Source: a virus | Reading direction: 5' to 3' (one strand) | Virus record (IMG/VR): IMGVR_UViG_3300025012_000320 | Location: 1 to 20,162 of that record | DNA length: 20,162 nt | In this document: positions 5,693 to 20,162 of the stretch, one piece after another | Layout: each line of letters begins with the position of its first letter | Numbering within the stretch: position 1 is the first letter of the stretch | Position numbers and translations under genes: made by a program | Notes under the pieces: model-generated | Databases searched by the model: none | What the model was told of the DNA's origin: nothing | Seen by the model: only the letters and a program-made list of their open reading frames with translations

Positions 5693-6232
5693 ATGATCAC
5701 CATAAAAATCAATGACCGCGAAGTGACCGAGGCCCTGGGCAAGCTGGCGGGGCGCTGCTCTGACCTGCGGCCGGCCATGGACGATATCGGCGAGTACATG
5801 GTCGAGTCCACGAAAAAGCGGTTCGCTACCTCCACGGCGCCGGACGGGACGAAATGGGCGCCCAACAAGGAGACGACGCTGCGCGAGTACTTCCGCCGCA
5901 AGGGTGGCGGCACGGTCCTGCGCAAGGGCGAAAAGGGGCCGGTGCCCGGCGGGCAGATCCTGGGCAGCAAGAAGGTGATGATCGGCGAGTCGAAGCGGCT
6001 CGGGACCGAGATCGCGCCGAAGGCGGAGCAGCGGCGGGTGGAGATCACCTCCAGCCTGATTTACTCAGCTGTCCAGCAGTTCGGGGCCGCGAGAGGGTCA
6101 TTCGGCCGCACCAAGAGGGGCGCGCCCATCCCCTGGGGGAACATCCCGGCCCGGCCATTTATGGGCCTCTCGGACGAGGATAAGGCGGCGGTGCTCGACA
6201 TCATCCAGGAGCATCTGGAGCTGGCGGATTGA
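5693..6232 (+). CDS. Virion morphogenesis protein (Mu gpG-like)
   Basis: This 179-residue protein begins MITIKINDREVTEALGKLAG, the usual start of phage virion morphogenesis (Phage_tail_S/gpG) proteins, followed by D-L-R-P-A-M-x-x-I-G-E-Y-M. Further features are a P-D-G-T-K-W-A-P segment near residue 50 and a closing P-A-R-P-F-M-G-L-S-D-E-D typical of the family. Family members act in joining or completing heads and tails. ATG 5693 is preferred over an in-frame ATG at 5654 because the conserved N-terminus starts there. Its own Shine-Dalgarno is poor (GGCGGAG 15-21 bases upstream), which would make sense if it is normally coupled to upstream translation ending at 5690. A repeat-containing gap of about 200 bp follows. 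Confidence 0.88.
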   Translation: MITIKINDREVTEALGKLAGRCSDLRPAMDDIGEYMVESTKKRFATSTAPDGTKWAPNKETTLREYFRRKGGGTVLRKGEKGPVPGGQILGSKKVMIGESKRLGTEIAPKAEQRRVEITSSLIYSAVQQFGAARGSFGRTKRGAPIPWGNIPARPFMGLSDEDKAAVLDIIQEHLELAD

Positions 6233-6434
6233 AGGGCGGCCCTCACCCCTTCCCTCTCCAGAGGGGAGAGGGGGAGAAGAGAAAAGGCCAAAACAGGCCC
6301 TAATTTGCAAAAACAGGGTCAGGGGATACCAACGTACCGGCGAGATGCCAATCGTCGAATACAGAGGATTTTAAAAATAGTTTCACAACGGTTCTGTTGA
6401 TCGTCACTGACGACCTGAAAGCGAGAGGAAGGAA
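6233..6434. other. 202-bp gap: GC-rich palindrome then AT-richer leader
   Basis: This is one of the largest gaps in the operon. It begins with a GC-rich palindromic repeat (6240-6276, listed separately). From about 6301 the DNA becomes visibly AT-richer than its neighbours and contains TTGCAAAAACAGGGTCAGG (6304-6322), which resembles dispersed REP-type sequences, and a perfect 13-base palindrome TCGTCACTGACGA at 6401-6413. The last bases hold the AGGAAGGA ribosome site for the protease gene. I see no convincing coding frame. A promoter or protein-binding site is possible but not demonstrated. Confidence 0.5.
6240..6276 (+). repeat. GC-rich palindromic repeat, copy 1
   Basis: CCCTCACCCC (6240-6249) is followed by a hairpin of CCCTCTCC (6252-6259) with GGAGAGGG (6265-6272) around an AGAGG loop. 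This looks like the short CCCTCTCCC/GGGAGAGGG palindromes scattered between genes in many proteobacterial chromosomes. An inverted copy lies at 11568-11606. No T-run follows, so it is not a classical terminator. Confidence 0.8.
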
Positions 6435-15400: not shown

Positions 15401-17237
15401 CTCGCTCGACCCTTCCACAATCGAAGAGATGTGGAAGTGGGCCGAAAAGTCCAAGCCGTCCTTTGATAAAATCAAAACGTCCCTGGAGGACATGGGGCTG
15501 AAGGGCGGCTACATGCAGCAGGCCATGAGCCTGTTGGAGAGCGCGGCCACGTCGGCAACCGGCTCGACAGAGGATCTCGAAAACTATCTGATATCCCTGG
15601 GCCATACCCAGGAAGAAGTAGCCGACATGCTGGCGGACTACACGGGGTCGGCAATAAGCAAGATGCGGGATGCCGGCGAGGCCTATCTCGCGGCTACCAA
15701 TCCGGTATTGCATGCCATGTCGCTGATGGCCAAGGAAATGACGGATGTTACTACGGACACCTCCGGGCTGTCCAATGCGGTCGGCGTATTCGGCGATGAG
15801 GCCAATACGGTGCAGAATGCGGTCAGCGCCCTGAACGCCGAGATATTTGACCTGGACGTCGCGGCGAGCAGGGCCGGGGCAACGATCGGCGAGGCTGCAT
15901 ATGATATCAGCGCCGCCCTCGCCGAACTCACCGGCACCGGGACGGGCGCGACGCCAACGGCCGGCGGTCCGCCGGTCACGGTTGGCAACTGGGATGGCGG
16001 GATCATAGGCTATGCGGATGGCGGCATCCTGCAGGGCGGCTCAGGGGTGCGGGATGATCTCTATCTCGGCACGGTCAACGGCAAGGCACAGCTGGCCGTT
16101 GGCGGTGAGTATATCATGCCCCAGGCCCAGACCATAAAATACCTGACCGAGCTGGAAGCCATGCGCGCAGATCGCTACCTGCTGGGCGGGCCGACCAAGG
16201 GCGTGCCGCCGGTCAGCCCCAGGCCGATCAATCCCAGCCCGTTGGATACCACTCGCAGCGGCGACGACCCGGCGGCGATCGCAAAATACATGAACGATAT
16301 CCTTTTCAAGATCGCGCAGATGGGCCGCAGCGGACTGGAGCGAGACCTGGCTTCCCTTCACCGGAGCATGGCCGAGACAGTGGCCCGCGCCAAAGAGCTT
16401 GGCGCATCGGAAAAGGACCTGGCCGACATCCGCAAGCTGGAGGCGCTGCAGACCTTCGAGATCCTTGAGGCGCACAAAAAGGCCCGGCAGGATTTCATGC
16501 GCGGGATCACCGACGAGATTGACTCCTACTCGATGACCGACCAGCAATTGGCCATCCGCGAGACGGTCCGGACCATGGAAAAGCAGCTGGCCGCCGCTAG
16601 AGAGCTTGGCGTCAGCGAAGAGGGGCTGGCCAATATCCGCAAGCTGCAGGGGCTCAAGGCGGCGGAGGTCATGGACGAGGGCCTGCGCACGGCCATCACC
16701 TCCATGCAGTCGTTCCGCGAGTCAATGGCCGCCACGGAGGCCGGGGTGGATCGATCCGCCGAAGCCCAGCAGAAGCTGTTCGCCACCCTGGCCCAGGCAA
16801 AGAAAGGAGATTTCTCCGGGGTCGAGGCCATCGGCGAGGTGCTGCAGAACATTGCCATCAACAAGGAAAGCTACGCCACGGCAGCCGATTACGCCCGAGA
16901 CTACTGGCGGACCATGTCCGCGGTGTCCGAGTTGGAACGGCTCACCACCGTGCAGGTCCAGCCGCAGGGGTTTGCCGACGGCGGCGAGTTCGGCGGCGGC
17001 TGGCGCCTGGTCGGCGAGCAAGGGCCGGAATTGGAATACACCGGCCCGAGCAGGATCTACAGCAACGACCAGTCCCGGGCGCTGGTTGATCTCTCCGAGG
17101 TGGTCGCCGAGATCCGGGAGCTGCGCCAGGAGATCGCCGCCACAGGCTACCAGGGGTTGAAAAATAGCGGCAAGGCGGTCCGGGTCCTGGAGAGGTGGGA
17201 TGCCATCGGCCTGCCGCCGGAGAGGGCCGCCGCATGA
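12444..17237 (+). CDS. Tail tape measure protein
   Basis: This is 1597 residues, by far the longest gene. GTG 12444 is the first possible start after an in-frame TAA at 12438-12440, and the S-T-L-N-I-V-I-E-V-D-D-K-G opening is usual for this family, but there is no Shine-Dalgarno. Segments in order: Ala/Gly-rich hydrophobic stretch 57-84; tape-measure core (about 90-300) with M-E-E-A-Q-S-K-F-N-T-V-F-G and A-Q-V-M-D-D-I-Q-S-A-L-V-G-N-Y-E; coiled coils about 340-600; a hydrophobic/Gly-rich region about 610-730; a second hydrophobic stretch P-V-I-G-T-V-V-A-A-A-M-A-L-Y-F about 830-845; near-repeats about 1300-1420; and a C-terminal F-A-D-G-G-E-F-G-G-G-W-R-L-V-G-E-Q-G-P-E-L segment near 1510-1530. 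It sets tail length and may help DNA cross the inner membrane. Codon use shifts at about 14640-15480. It overlaps the next gene by ATGA. Confidence 0.93.
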   Translation: MNASTLNIVIEVDDKGSVKIRQLGDTVADAGKKGEDGGKRMGRSLGEIDGIAGKAVTALKGVAMAGAAIGGAAGLGGIYLLTGALRESVQLASDMEEAQSKFNTVFGELSAQAEQWAGELRKSYHMSSLDAKKYLAAMQDLLVPMGMNSEAAAAMSFEVVKLSADLGSFNNLPTAQVMDDIQSALVGNYETMKKYGVVVNAATVEEKALAMGLAETKDAITAADKAQAAYQLIVEGSTFAVGDAIRTAKSFANQMRDLEVNITELKIAAGEALLPVINNLVTGLNEWLTANEDLLKQNIQEFVSKLIPIIEGTAKAIGWLVEQIDNWIEGAKILGIIEDENATRREEAAKKNATIKALEEEIALHESILAVEGLRDDARVKHQELLDRATEKYRALTYNIDANKVSIDELSAGLDAYYGAGISAGEATDAQGESHGKTAKEIEKHATELQKLLDKYLPLKKEAEDVTAAEDGLNELRASGTITLEEYQLALDNLRKSTAQYKEDEKKLAEAIKATEERVKEKQKAEEEAVKAAAELSKAYMDIYGEMADSSAAMSQRSYEAQVKALDEQLAAYRKMGVDENLLNELRYKRQRELDKKKLRSSGEFFGGVIAAAMDAEDAMQSMADIGYQAFNMLSDTFSQTFVAVMEGEFDSIGDIWDSLLDNMLNMFIQFIADLLAKWAMTEIVSLFGSFGGSGSGWGSVLGSIGSLISGSPSSNGGGGVGSGASTAGSAVSTATTGYALYSYLSGGGAGNLANAGWVGDLVAQYQVSEIAAEYAAAEAAAIAAEGAATYAELEALSAGLEAYYGYEAGSVAAAEGSGVAISSYVPVIGTVVAAAMALYFGQEKKMLPDEADMFNRAGFRPETFASLIGNEFTRTMVPYFGEYDAKWDQASSTLIMLADAEKTKNFREDYYFSPDVDSAAMSTRSIRWDAMAPTWDLDTDVLAAVNTLFGSASDMGQGLIQMSLGIDGVPETLDEFAVALDKMNISLDPSTIEEMWKWAEKSKPSFDKIKTSLEDMGLKGGYMQQAMSLLESAATSATGSTEDLENYLISLGHTQEEVADMLADYTGSAISKMRDAGEAYLAATNPVLHAMSLMAKEMTDVTTDTSGLSNAVGVFGDEANTVQNAVSALNAEIFDLDVAASRAGATIGEAAYDISAALAELTGTGTGATPTAGGPPVTVGNWDGGIIGYADGGILQGGSGVRDDLYLGTVNGKAQLAVGGEYIMPQAQTIKYLTELEAMRADRYLLGGPTKGVPPVSPRPINPSPLDTTRSGDDPAAIAKYMNDILFKIAQMGRSGLERDLASLHRSMAETVARAKELGASEKDLADIRKLEALQTFEILEAHKKARQDFMRGITDEIDSYSMTDQQLAIRETVRTMEKQLAAARELGVSEEGLANIRKLQGLKAAEVMDEGLRTAITSMQSFRESMAATEAGVDRSAEAQQKLFATLAQAKKGDFSGVEAIGEVLQNIAINKESYATAADYARDYWRTMSAVSELERLTTVQVQPQGFADGGEFGGGWRLVGEQGPELEYTGPSRIYSNDQSRALVDLSEVVAEIRELRQEIAATGYQGLKNSGKAVRVLERWDAIGLPPERAAA

Positions 17238-18145
17238 AGATAATCAAGCCGATCGCGGTGACCGACGCCACCCTGGTTTCGCACAGCGTCGCCGAAAACG
17301 ACTATGCGGTCTGGGCGAGCGGGACCACCTACACCGCCGGGCAGAAGGTGATCATGACCACCGGCGTCCACAAGATTTTCGAGTCGGTGGCCGACGGCAA
17401 TACGGGGAACGATCCGTCCACGACCACCGGCTTTTGGATCGACCTCGGCCCGACCAATCGCTGGGCCATGTTCGACCAGGCGGTCGGCACGGTGACCGAG
17501 GGTGCCCTGGAAATTGCAACGGTGATCGAGCTGGCCGACGCCGATGGGGTGGATGCCATCGCCCTGTTGGACCTGTCCGGAGACACTGCGCTGATCGAGC
17601 TGATCGACGCGGCGGATGCGGTGCTCTACAGCGACGAGCGGCCCCTGATCGATTACGCCGACGCGGCGCCTTCCTGGTACAGTTATTTTTTCGGGGAGCA
17701 GGAGCATATCGCGAACCTGGTGCTGCTGGGCCTGCCTTTTTTTTACTCGGCCCGCCTGCGGGTGACCATTTCGGCCGCGGCCGGCAACGTGTCCATCGGC
17801 ACTTTGGCGTTCAGCCGCGCCGTGGAGGCCGGCATTACCGAGTGGTCGCCGGAGATCGGCATCACCGATTATTCCACCAAGGAGACGGACATCTACGGGG
17901 TGACAAAGGTGGTGGAGCGCCGGTATGCGACAGTGATGAGTTGTGATTTTAAGATCCCGCACCGGCAGCTGCGGGCGGTGTTCAGGCTGCTGGCCGCGAT
18001 CAGGGCCACGCCGGTGGTATGGATCGGATCAGAAGACCAGCAGCTCGACGTCACCATCGTCTACGGATTTTACAAGGGTTTTAATATCATCATGAAAAAC
18101 ACTCGGTTTTCCTTTTGCAGTCTGGAGATCGAGGGGCTCACTTAA
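17234..18145 (+). CDS. Distal tail protein with carbohydrate-binding-like segment
   Basis: This is 303 residues from ATG 17234, which overlaps the tape measure stop; an in-frame ATG 39 bp upstream lies inside the tape measure gene. It begins MKIIKPIAVTDATLVSHSVA. Residues 24-72 (Y-A-V-W-A-S-G-T-T-Y-T-A-G-Q-K-V ... T-G-N-D-P ... G-F-W) have the aromatic and turn pattern of CBM5/12-type modules, and a T-N-R-W-A-M-F-D segment follows at 74-81. The C-terminal half includes G-I-T-D-Y-S-T-K-E-T-D and a closing Y-G-F-Y-K-G-F-N ... S-F-C-S-L-E-I-E-G-L-T. I recall this architecture as a conserved tail-tip protein of siphophages and Mu-like prophages, though its exact function is not established. A sugar-binding role at the tail tip is inferred. 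Confidence 0.75.
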   Translation: MKIIKPIAVTDATLVSHSVAENDYAVWASGTTYTAGQKVIMTTGVHKIFESVADGNTGNDPSTTTGFWIDLGPTNRWAMFDQAVGTVTEGALEIATVIELADADGVDAIALLDLSGDTALIELIDAADAVLYSDERPLIDYADAAPSWYSYFFGEQEHIANLVLLGLPFFYSARLRVTISAAAGNVSIGTLAFSRAVEAGITEWSPEIGITDYSTKETDIYGVTKVVERRYATVMSCDFKIPHRQLRAVFRLLAAIRATPVVWIGSEDQQLDVTIVYGFYKGFNIIMKNTRFSFCSLEIEGLT

Positions 18146-18159
18146 AAAGGAGAAGCAGC

Positions 18160-18936
18160 ATGCCTATCAATCCACTGCCGGCCGCGCCGAACAAGAGCAC
18201 TGACACCAAATACGAGTTTGACGTCAAGGCTGATGCCTTGGTCGCCGCCCTGGGCGATTTCGTCACCGAGGCGAACGCCCTGGAAACCAATGTCAACGGC
18301 AAGGAAGCGGCTGCCGCCGCATCGGCCGCCGCGGCACTTGGTTCAGAGGGCGCCGCTGCCGCCAGCGCCGCCAGCGCAATCGCCGCGCCCGGCACCAGCG
18401 CCACCAGCGCCACCAGCATGAGTGTCGGCACCGGCACCAAGGACCTGACCATCGAGACCGGCAAGGACCTGGTGGTCGGCATGAAGGTGATCATCGCCAG
18501 CTCTGCCGCGCCGAGTACCTATATGTACGGCACGATCACAGCCTACGACTCGGGCACCGGGGCACTCCAGGTGAGCGTCGAGCAAACGGCAGGCAGTGGC
18601 ACTGCCGCCGCCTGGACGGTGTCGCTGACCGGGCCTCGGGCGCTTGCCCTTGGCGATGGCCAGACGTGGACCAATGTCAAGGCGTCCAGGTCGCTTGGTG
18701 TCACCTATACCAACACCACTGGCCGGTCAATTATGGTTATGGCAACAATCCTGGAGATTTCGCCGTCGATTGCCGGAGTTACCGTGCTTATCGACGGATC
18801 TTTAATGGCATCCTGGTACTCTGACAACAACGGCACCGATATAGCCCCGATCAGCTTTATCGTTCCCGCCGGCAGCTCTTACAGGATTAACACGACAGGC
18901 GGCTGCTCCGTCGAGCAGTGGTCTGAACTGCGGTAA
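18160..18936 (+). CDS. Tail-fibre-like protein with C-terminal tip domain
   Basis: This is 258 residues from ATG 18160, with AAGGAG at 18147-18152; the frame is open upstream but lacks a better start. The N-terminus (1-45) ends in F-V-T-E-A-N-A-L-E, as seen in phage fibre attachment regions. An Ala/Ser-rich helix (48-77) follows. Residues 78-158 carry a widespread fibre module: T-S-A-T-S-M-S-V-G-T-G-T-K-D-L-T-I, G-K-D-L-V-V-G-M, A-Y-D-S-G-T-G-A-L, then A-A-W-T-V-S-L-T-G-P. The last 87 residues (172-258) are a beta-rich tip domain that resembles residues 32-116 of the following secreted protein. It is short for a fibre, so it may be a tip or an adaptor. GC content falls in the tip-coding part. 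Confidence 0.8.
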   Translation: MPINPLPAAPNKSTDTKYEFDVKADALVAALGDFVTEANALETNVNGKEAAAAASAAAALGSEGAAAASAASAIAAPGTSATSATSMSVGTGTKDLTIETGKDLVVGMKVIIASSAAPSTYMYGTITAYDSGTGALQVSVEQTAGSGTAAAWTVSLTGPRALALGDGQTWTNVKASRSLGVTYTNTTGRSIMVMATILEISPSIAGVTVLIDGSLMASWYSDNNGTDIAPISFIVPAGSSYRINTTGGCSVEQWSELR

Positions 18937-18958
18937 ACAACAACAACGAGGTAAGGCA

Positions 18959-19309
18959 ATGAAAAAACTGATCTTTGCGGTACTCTTCGGCTTGGCCCTT
19001 AGTTTAAGCTCTCCTGCCCTTTCACACGACATCGGCGAAGGCCAAGTGCTCGTGCAGCTTATAGGCAAGCGGGCTTTTAACACTATTTACAAGAACCGCA
19101 GCGGGAGGACAATTTTCGTAATGGTCAGCGCCTGTTTTGCCGGGGAGGGTACTCTTGAGGCAAGGCTGAACGGCAAACTTGTTGCGTTCACCTCAACACC
19201 CCCTAACGGTGACTCGTCGGTGTCCTTCCCGGTCCCCCCCAATGCTACCTACTCGGTCGGCTGCCGGAACAGTGTGTGCGATGCAAACGCCTGGGTAGAG
19301 CTACGATAA
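18959..19309 (+). CDS. Secreted protein homologous to the tail-fibre tip domain
   Basis: This 116-residue protein lies behind GAGGTAAGG. Residues 1-22 are a clear Sec signal peptide: MKK, a hydrophobic core IFAVLFGLALSL, then SSPALS with likely cleavage near residues 20-22. There is no lipobox cysteine. The mature part aligns with the tip of the preceding fibre: Y-K-N-R-S-G-R-T-I-F-V-M-V against Y-T-N-T-T-G-R-S-I-M-V-M-A, then L-N-G-K-L-V-A against I-D-G-S-L-M-A, V-S-F-P-V-P against I-S-F-I-V-P, and a shared final W-x-E-L-R. It has three cysteines (59, 102, 107), where the fibre tip has one, which fits an oxidising periplasm. DNA is less GC-rich than most of the window. Possible roles are receptor masking or superinfection exclusion. 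It could instead be an ordinary secreted adhesin-like moron. Confidence 0.8.
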   Translation: MKKLIFAVLFGLALSLSSPALSHDIGEGQVLVQLIGKRAFNTIYKNRSGRTIFVMVSACFAGEGTLEARLNGKLVAFTSTPPNGDSSVSFPVPPNATYSVGCRNSVCDANAWVELR

Positions 19310-19342
19310 CAAGCGGCCATTTGAGATAAACGAGGGCAAGCT

Positions 19343-19693
19343 ATGATTATACCCTACGACTGGCCGCTGATCATCTATGTCGGCCCCGACTTCGAGGATG
19401 AGATCATCTTCACGCAGAGCGGGGTGCCGCTGGACCTGACTGACTATACCGCCTACGACCAGATCAGGACGGGGCAGTCGCAGGCAGCCGGCCTGATCGC
19501 GGAGTTTACCTGCGCAATCACTCCGGCCGAGGGCAAGGTGAAACTCTCCCTGACCGACCTGGTGACCCGGTTGATCAGCGTTGCCGCCGGATATCACACC
19601 CTGGTGCTGCGCGATCCGGCCGGACTGGACCTGCCCTTTGCCATGGGCACGGTAACCTTTGTCCAGACCTCCACCGTGCTGCCTGAGGCGTGA
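19343..19693 (+). CDS. Small beta-rich tail protein
   Basis: This 116-residue protein lies behind GAGGG (19332-19336). It reads as an all-beta domain: an early D-F-E-D-E-I-I-F, then G-V-P-L-D-L-T-D-Y-T-A-Y-D-Q-I-R near residues 27-42, I-T-P-A-E-G-K-V-K-L-S-L-T near 59-71, and G-Y-H-T-L-V-L-R-D-P-A-G near 83-94. This is the 'G-x-P-x-D-L-T-G-Y-x-x-x-x-Q-I-R' pattern of small tail and baseplate-associated proteins similar to BppU N-terminal domains. It probably sits between tail tip and fibre proteins. The function is by analogy only. Confidence 0.7.
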   Translation: MIIPYDWPLIIYVGPDFEDEIIFTQSGVPLDLTDYTAYDQIRTGQSQAAGLIAEFTCAITPAEGKVKLSLTDLVTRLISVAAGYHTLVLRDPAGLDLPFAMGTVTFVQTSTVLPEA

Positions 19694-19696
19694 GCC

Positions 19697-20162
19697 GTGC
19701 CGACCCGTGAAATAGCCGAAACCGAGGTGCCGGCCCGTGAGCTGGTCGAGACTGAGGTTCCGTCCCGCGAACTGGCAGAGACCGTGCCCGCTACCTGCGA
19801 GCTGGTCGAGCCGGAGGCCCCGGTCCGGGAGGTGGAGTTTACGGCCGAGGCTGAGGCTGTGGTGGATCCGGCATTCAAGCTGTACCACCCGCAGCCCAAA
19901 AATTACATCGGCGCCGCCGGCGGCGTCGGTTTCGGTGTCGGCATCTGTCCCGTGGTGCCATCGGGGTTTGTCGAGCTGCCCGGGACGCGCAGCCCTGGTT
20001 ATGACAACCATGGCAATTATCAGTATGCGGATGGTTCGATCATGGTCTGGATCCCGGCGTTCTATTACCGGATTGGCCATGTCGACAACCCGACCTATGC
20101 GGCCTATGGGGCCAACGCGGTTGACGTGCTGCCCGAGTCGGCGTTTGCCGATGTCGCCGCTG
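19697..20162 (+). CDS. Tail protein with decapeptide repeats and probable C-type-lectin/FGE-like domain (5' part)
   Basis: GTG 19697 follows GAGG and opens a frame that runs off the window after 155 codons. Residues 1-45 are four and a half degenerate copies of a 10-residue unit R-E-L-V-E-T-E-V-P-[AS]. From about residue 58 the sequence reads F-K-L-Y-H-P-Q-P-K-N-Y, then G-A-A-G-G-V-G-F-G-V-G-I-C-P and D-N-H-G-N-Y-Q-Y-A-D-G-S, ending in M-V-W-I-P-A-F-Y-Y. The G-N-Y-Q-Y-x-D-G-S-x-M-V-W-I-P-A-F-Y-Y motif is one I recall from prophage tail proteins with a formylglycine-generating-enzyme/C-type lectin fold, a fold used by receptor-binding proteins. The C-terminal half, where a lectin domain would be complete, is missing here. 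Confidence 0.75.
   Translation, partial: MPTREIAETEVPARELVETEVPSRELAETVPATCELVEPEAPVREVEFTAEAEAVVDPAFKLYHPQPKNYIGAAGGVGFGVGICPVVPSGFVELPGTRSPGYDNHGNYQYADGSIMVWIPAFYYRIGHVDNPTYAAYGANAVDVLPESAFADVAA

Follow-up and report, generated by a model that had tools for sequence, protein, structure and literature searches.

What is the tip domain of a phage tail fibre doing behind a signal peptide, in a gene of its own just after the fibre gene? The question is raised by IMG/VR record IMGVR_UViG_3300025012_000320, which we analyzed over its whole length (20162 bases, referred to here as the window) and whose head and tail genes are Mu-like according to their PHROG matches (terminase, portal, minor head protein, head maturation protease, major head protein, and tape measure). 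A preliminary description of this DNA had proposed that the gene after the fibre gene, here called P0002, is a signal-peptide copy of the fibre tip that could occupy the receptor of the fibre, much as Llp of phage T5 blocks FhuA, the receptor of that phage. The stretch to which it pointed, 18673-19309, indeed runs from fibre residue 172 (at 18673) to the end of the P0002 gene. A second record, IMGVR_UViG_3300025000_000688 (L010), overlaps window positions 18640-20162 with 0 mismatches in 1523 bases and extends downstream, and the P0002 gene, present in both overlapping records, probably belongs to one phage population. The features discussed below are collected in Table 1.

Table 1. Features of the window around the fibre gene and the basis on which each was assigned.
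Feature	Positions	Strand	Basis or remark
Window, whole record	1-20162		20162 bases
P0005, conserved gene upstream of the fibre gene	17234..18145	+	PHROG 6278, 8.5e-67; anchor of the census
Tail fibre gene, 258 aa	18160..18936	+	Conserved N-terminal part and C-terminal tip domain
Fibre tip domain, predicted C1q/TNF-like jelly roll	18646..18933	+	AF2 pLDDT 95
Cassette, fibre tip and P0002 gene	18660..19341	+	Differs from sister phage L011; GC 0.54 vs 0.63 for the window
P0002, predicted exported tip-domain gene, 116 aa	18959..19309	+	Profile 62.7 bits; AF2 pLDDT 95
Predicted Sec-type signal peptide of P0002, MKKLIFAVLFGLALSLSSPALS	18959..19024	+	Sequence by eye and rule-based test; cut expected before HD
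P0003, next tail gene, 116 aa	19343..19693	+	PHROG 1084, 2.5e-11; right edge of the cassette

The claimed homology between the fibre tip and the product of the next gene stands well clear of chance. The fibre protein matches PHROG 18834 (E 2.2e-17) and PHROG 26525, "tail fiber protein" (5.9e-06), whose tips are the C-termini of tail fibres of Acinetobacter, Edwardsiella, Salmonella, Pseudomonas, and Vibrio phages, and relatives of its tip are encoded in 425 viral loci. Separated from the fibre gene by a 22-base gap, the P0002 gene encodes a protein that aligns with the fibre protein by BLASTP (32% over 111 positions, E 6e-11), scores 62.7 bits with a 79-tip profile from which it had been left out (2000 shuffles reached 6.2 at best), and reaches an hhalign probability of 97% (1.5e-11) against six other tips. 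It also matches the C-terminus of PHROG 18834 at 2.7e-09, and its significant profile match across the domain places it in the PHROG 18834 type of tip domain. The shared motifs listed in the preliminary description are present in both proteins, with the correction that in the fibre S-[VI]-S-F-x-V-P begins with P instead of S. All six columns that are invariant across 80 aligned tips (Q, R, N, Y, W, and E) are retained in P0002 at 21-38% identity to other tips, and this retention despite such low identity points to selection and not decay.

The predicted structures agree with this assignment. AF2 models of the mature P0002 domain and of the fibre tip (mean pLDDT 95 each) have the same seven strands in identical order, a C1q/TNF-like jelly roll, with the two models resting on nearly identical relative alignments and hence not independent of each other. 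Against BFVD, the P0002 model gave query-normalised TM values of 0.80-0.89 for the best 16 viral models, several of which are named as tail fibres. The closest PDB chain to the P0002 domain, taken as a monomer model, is C1QL2 (4qpy; Z 9.1, rmsd 2.9 A, 91 residues), and the fibre tip model is likewise closest to a chain of the C1q-like trimers (Z 8.2, 3.3 A, 94 residues); these middling Z values show a common arrangement of the predicted folds and no function. Among solved structures, no sequence relative of either tip was found; two haemagglutinin matches at E 0.4 were weak and were taken as chance. P0002 thus resembles the tips of PHROG 18834 and 26525 in domain, conserved residues, C-terminal W-x-E-L-R, and predicted fold, yet it differs from them in lacking the GQTW tryptophan, which is kept in more than 90% of tips, and in having three cysteines in its mature form. 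The fibre tip has one cysteine, so that the contrast of three against one drawn earlier was correct, and 50 of the 80 tips have none.

P0002 is not, however, the copy of the adjacent tip that it was first taken to be. The two domains are 26% identical over the aligned region, below the median of 39% between tips of different phages, and the median for P0002 against other tips is 29%; on the tree it forms the longest branch, the most diverged among the 80 aligned tips. On its low identity and its position in the tree, we reject an in-place duplication of the fibre tip. An identity of 26% also gives no indication of a common ligand or receptor, and the idea that P0002 occupies the same receptor as the fibre is left unsupported. 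A short tip protein of 116 aa, from locus L094, stands closest to it in the tree (support 96/78), with the placement unsure.

Compared with the fibre protein, P0002 is also shorter: it has neither a stem nor the N-terminal part that we infer docks the fibre to the tail, and just 22-24 residues, signal-peptide-like, precede its domain. One could regard it as a relic, a short tip protein or the second of two tandem fibre genes that has lost its docking part, with an incidental signal-like start and a functionless product. The short L094 protein would fit such a history, as would the 17 other short tip proteins (20-60 residues before the tip) among 152 and the tandem fibre genes of Burkholderiaceae. 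Tips were found in 15 of 268 Burkholderiaceae genomes, all within open frames of at least 283 aa. Tandem tip-bearing fibre genes were seen in locus L098 and, with about 1.7 kb between them, in genomes G761, G764, G766, G767, G775, and G795; lone tip genes may come from such pairs.

The start of P0002 speaks against a relic, as do the invariant tip residues that it has kept. By eye, MKKLIFAVLFGLALSLSSPALS followed by HD contains K-K, a hydrophobic core, and A-x-S preceding the cut, with a ribosome-site-like GAGG upstream, and the rule-based test likewise found the n-, h-, and c-regions and the SPase I site of a Sec-exported protein. This test is crude, places the P0002 cut elsewhere in the core, and was used as a yes/no filter; across three related records it passed 5 of 593 ATG-started open stretches, and these five are all starts belonging to three evident genes. 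The claim that the second protein alone has a Sec signal peptide is upheld by both approaches, and its scope can be widened: of the 152 distinct tips that the retrieved loci contain, P0002 is the sole one led directly by a signal peptide, the PHROG 18834 and 26525 tips being C-terminal parts without one, and six other weak signal matches (in five proteins) lie distant from the tip or within long fibres. With these observations weighed, we consider a functionless relic quite unlikely. No lipobox cysteine occurs around the predicted cut (SPALSHDIG), in contrast to Llp and Cor.

A sister phage (L011) bears on how the gene came to stand where it does. The protein encoded before its fibre gene is 87% identical to that of the window, and much of the shared DNA is 75-87% identical. 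Its fibre has the same N-terminal part as in the window (about 85% identical in DNA) and a different tip, the next gene begins three bases past the fibre stop, and the P0002 gene is missing. Both the alignment and the blastn breakpoints show that homology between the two phages is lost in the first codons of the tip and returns with the start codon of P0003, which also matches "L-shaped tail fiber protein assembly" at 2.2e-05 in the PHROG search. The intervening stretch of about 680 bases is the G+C low point of the window (sliding-window minimum of 0.529, against a mean of 0.632 and s.d. of 0.032), and the fibre tip and P0002 gene look like one low-GC cassette that was swapped. Because the breakpoints flank the tip and the P0002 gene together, the two would have been exchanged together, in either direction. 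Joint gain or loss as a cassette, a point new to this analysis, is supported at the sequence level, ties both genes to each other, and provides the best evidence that the P0002 gene belongs with the fibre tip.

Conservation in related phages, which a general system would be expected to show, is not seen for this pairing. In the P0005-anchored loci listed, 80 viral and 80 bacterial with each scan limited to 80, we looked for proteins that have a signal peptide and also a paralogue within their locus. The 80 viral loci yielded zero such pairs, and the 80 bacterial loci yielded eleven, none of which matched the tip profile, the single bacterial locus with a tip-profile match being L220. In the pair of L204, the one of the eleven that was read through, the common stretch falls outside any tip. 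A fibre gene paired with an exported tip was therefore found in none of these loci beyond the phage studied here, and the sister phage, with its 87% identical upstream protein, lacks it as well, which counts against a general system. Searches with the tip alignment returned nothing from genome contigs, plasmids, or E. coli genomes, and sets of 369 and 379 genomes contained no tip, a result that is little informative. P0002 as the unique predicted exported fibre-tip gene within what was searched is well supported by these comparisons. From the preliminary interpretation, the homology and the signal peptide have stood, with the same predicted fold in their favor; the copy and the shared receptor have not, and the absence of a conserved pairing had been named there as a refutation.

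In other phages, the position after the tip is usually filled by something else. Among 72 other phages with a PHROG 18834-type tip and enough flank, 42 encode there a small protein whose start resembles MKYYKD (by a loose motif test), and none has an exported tip. Eight of these genes were checked: one clearly belongs to the Caudo_TAP tail fibre assembly proteins, one matches Tfa weakly, and the rest match families of unknown function. The slot reads as usually that of a chaperone or similar cytoplasmic accessory gene, firmly so for few phages. P0002 might by its position be an assembly or virion part that has replaced a Tfa-like gene, and Pam3 offers a parallel in gp24 and gp25, a TNF-like fibre tip with a dedicated small partner that serves as its chaperone (PMC9608196). 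However, fibres assemble in the cytoplasm and P0002 has a predicted export signal; gp25 and Tfa have a helical trimerising domain, whereas P0002 is a predicted exported tip without one; and the sister phage has a fibre with the slot empty. P0002 has no Pfam or NCBIfam match and no Tfa-type PHROG match, which places it outside the Caudo_TAP and Tfa families. An assembly role is, in our view, very unlikely.

The genes further downstream add to the picture of the tail. They include two large related tail proteins of 588 and 554 aa. The 588-aa paralogue begins at window position 19697, and its end has diverged and gives no match to the template repeat described below. After the tail genes, the overlapping record L010 (IMGVR_UViG_3300025000_000688, reverse strand) contains a diversity-generating retroelement with an Avd gene (PF22296, 1.7e-15) and a reverse transcriptase gene (PF00078). 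In reversed L010 coordinates, the template repeat lies at about 6305-6415 and the variable repeat, which ends the 554-aa tail protein and matches the template, at 5733-5845; the differences between the repeats cluster at template adenines (19/36, over a 130-base stretch overrunning the repeat). Judging from these genes and repeats, the phage also uses a retroelement to vary one of its tail proteins. If receptor choice depends on the 554-aa protein, the fibre and P0002 may, as a speculation, serve a constant first-contact ligand. The same order is seen in a prophage of a Dechloromonas MAG (L204, 9001-14105), a relative of this type of phage in a bacterium, with a P0005 homologue, a fibre, a large variable-type tail protein, an Avd-like gene, a repeat of the end of that tail protein, and a reverse transcriptase.

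Directly before the retroelement target gene lies a second small signal-peptide protein of 117 aa (MNKLAMAIMLTVLLAATTALA followed by WG; reversed L010 3851-4204 and L011 13009-13383), which is 79% conserved in the sister phage. It has no family match, was not found in the phage collection, and is unrelated to the tip. Other signal-peptide- or lipoprotein-like starts occur among the tail and lysis genes at reversed L010 2846-3376, 7888-8268, and 8424-9176 (176, 126, and about 238 aa).

The presence of other predicted exported genes, their roles unassigned, is one reason to consider P0002 a moron lectin, that is, a tip domain turned exported binder that serves host or phage through another ligand, unrelated to the receptor of the fibre. 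The low similarity to the adjacent tip, the longest branch on the tree, and the foreign base composition all agree with such an origin; its place among tail genes and its exchange together with the tip tie it instead to the fibre. We regard this origin as doubtful.

We tentatively favor, as a possible role, P0002 as a soluble exported tip lectin that is made late and occupies surface ligands. C1q/TNF-like tips bind sugar in a known case, the Bdellovibrio MAT fibres, one tip of which was seen with bound GlcNAc and which are themselves exported (PMC10769870), and the fibre of Pam3 has a TNF-like tip for which ligand binding was proposed (PMC9608196). The MAT proteins resemble P0002 in being phage-fibre-like, with signal peptides and TNF/C1q-like, disulfide-bearing, sugar-binding tips (PMC10769870); they are, however, long fibres displayed on bacterial cells, and P0002 is a lone 94-residue phage tip. 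Fibre tips of the PHROG 18834 type form the distal end of the fibre, and ligands are expected to bind there.

As a soluble lectin, P0002 would be made late together with the tail genes; no promoter-like match was found just upstream of its gene, and this together with the 22-base gap makes co-transcription with late tail genes likely. Sec export to the periplasm would keep it from mixing into the cytoplasmic fibre trimers, and it would fold in the periplasm, perhaps with a disulfide between Cys80 and Cys85 of the mature chain. Lacking an outer-membrane anchor or lipobox, it would remain periplasmic before lysis and be unable to cover surface receptors on living cells. Freed at lysis, or active in the periplasm, it would then occupy ligands like those of fibre tips, whether glycan or protein, such that released progeny might not be trapped on debris or other phages using the same ligand might be blocked. 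Late expression fits a role in release or late superinfection better than one in lysogen immunity. The more specific proposal, a soluble decoy tip, built on the fold of the adhesin itself, acquired in one cassette with the fibre tip and controlling adsorption by superinfection exclusion or anti-readsorption, is rather unlikely in our estimate. Against the lectin stands that the pairing was seen in a single phage, represented by two overlapping records, and with the GQTW tryptophan lost and the stem missing, P0002 may or may not form trimers or bind a ligand.

The comparison with T5 Llp that accompanied the original proposal holds in part. P0002, like Llp and Cor, is a small, in this case predicted, exported phage protein just after a receptor-binding protein gene, in the way that Llp lies beside pb5, but Llp is lipid-anchored and periplasmic and jams FhuA from below (PMC9586334), and P0002 is instead a tip homologue with neither lipobox nor surface anchor, so that the analogy is loose. 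A periplasmic exclusion factor of this type could work from within the cell, late in infection or during lysogeny, its target being either a receptor or some part of an incoming phage, and the exported Ltp of Streptococcus phage TP-J34, whose partner is the tape measure of the infecting virion, gives a precedent (PMC3952083). Llp and Ltp, the latter from Gram-positive hosts and directed at the tape measure, are both lipoproteins, fibre tips bind outward-facing ligands, and a separate promoter for expression in the lysogen was not found upstream of P0002; such a factor is accordingly unlikely. We know of no relation between Ltp and the tip domain. A scan with PADLOC yielded no defence family.

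Phages known for exclusion use unrelated small lipoproteins or membrane proteins, and a secreted relative of the fibre tip, if true, would represent direct ligand competition. Judging by the layout of the cassette, an exported partner can travel with the tip when tips are swapped. Even if its ligand differs from that of the fibre, P0002 would still be a virion domain turned exported protein.
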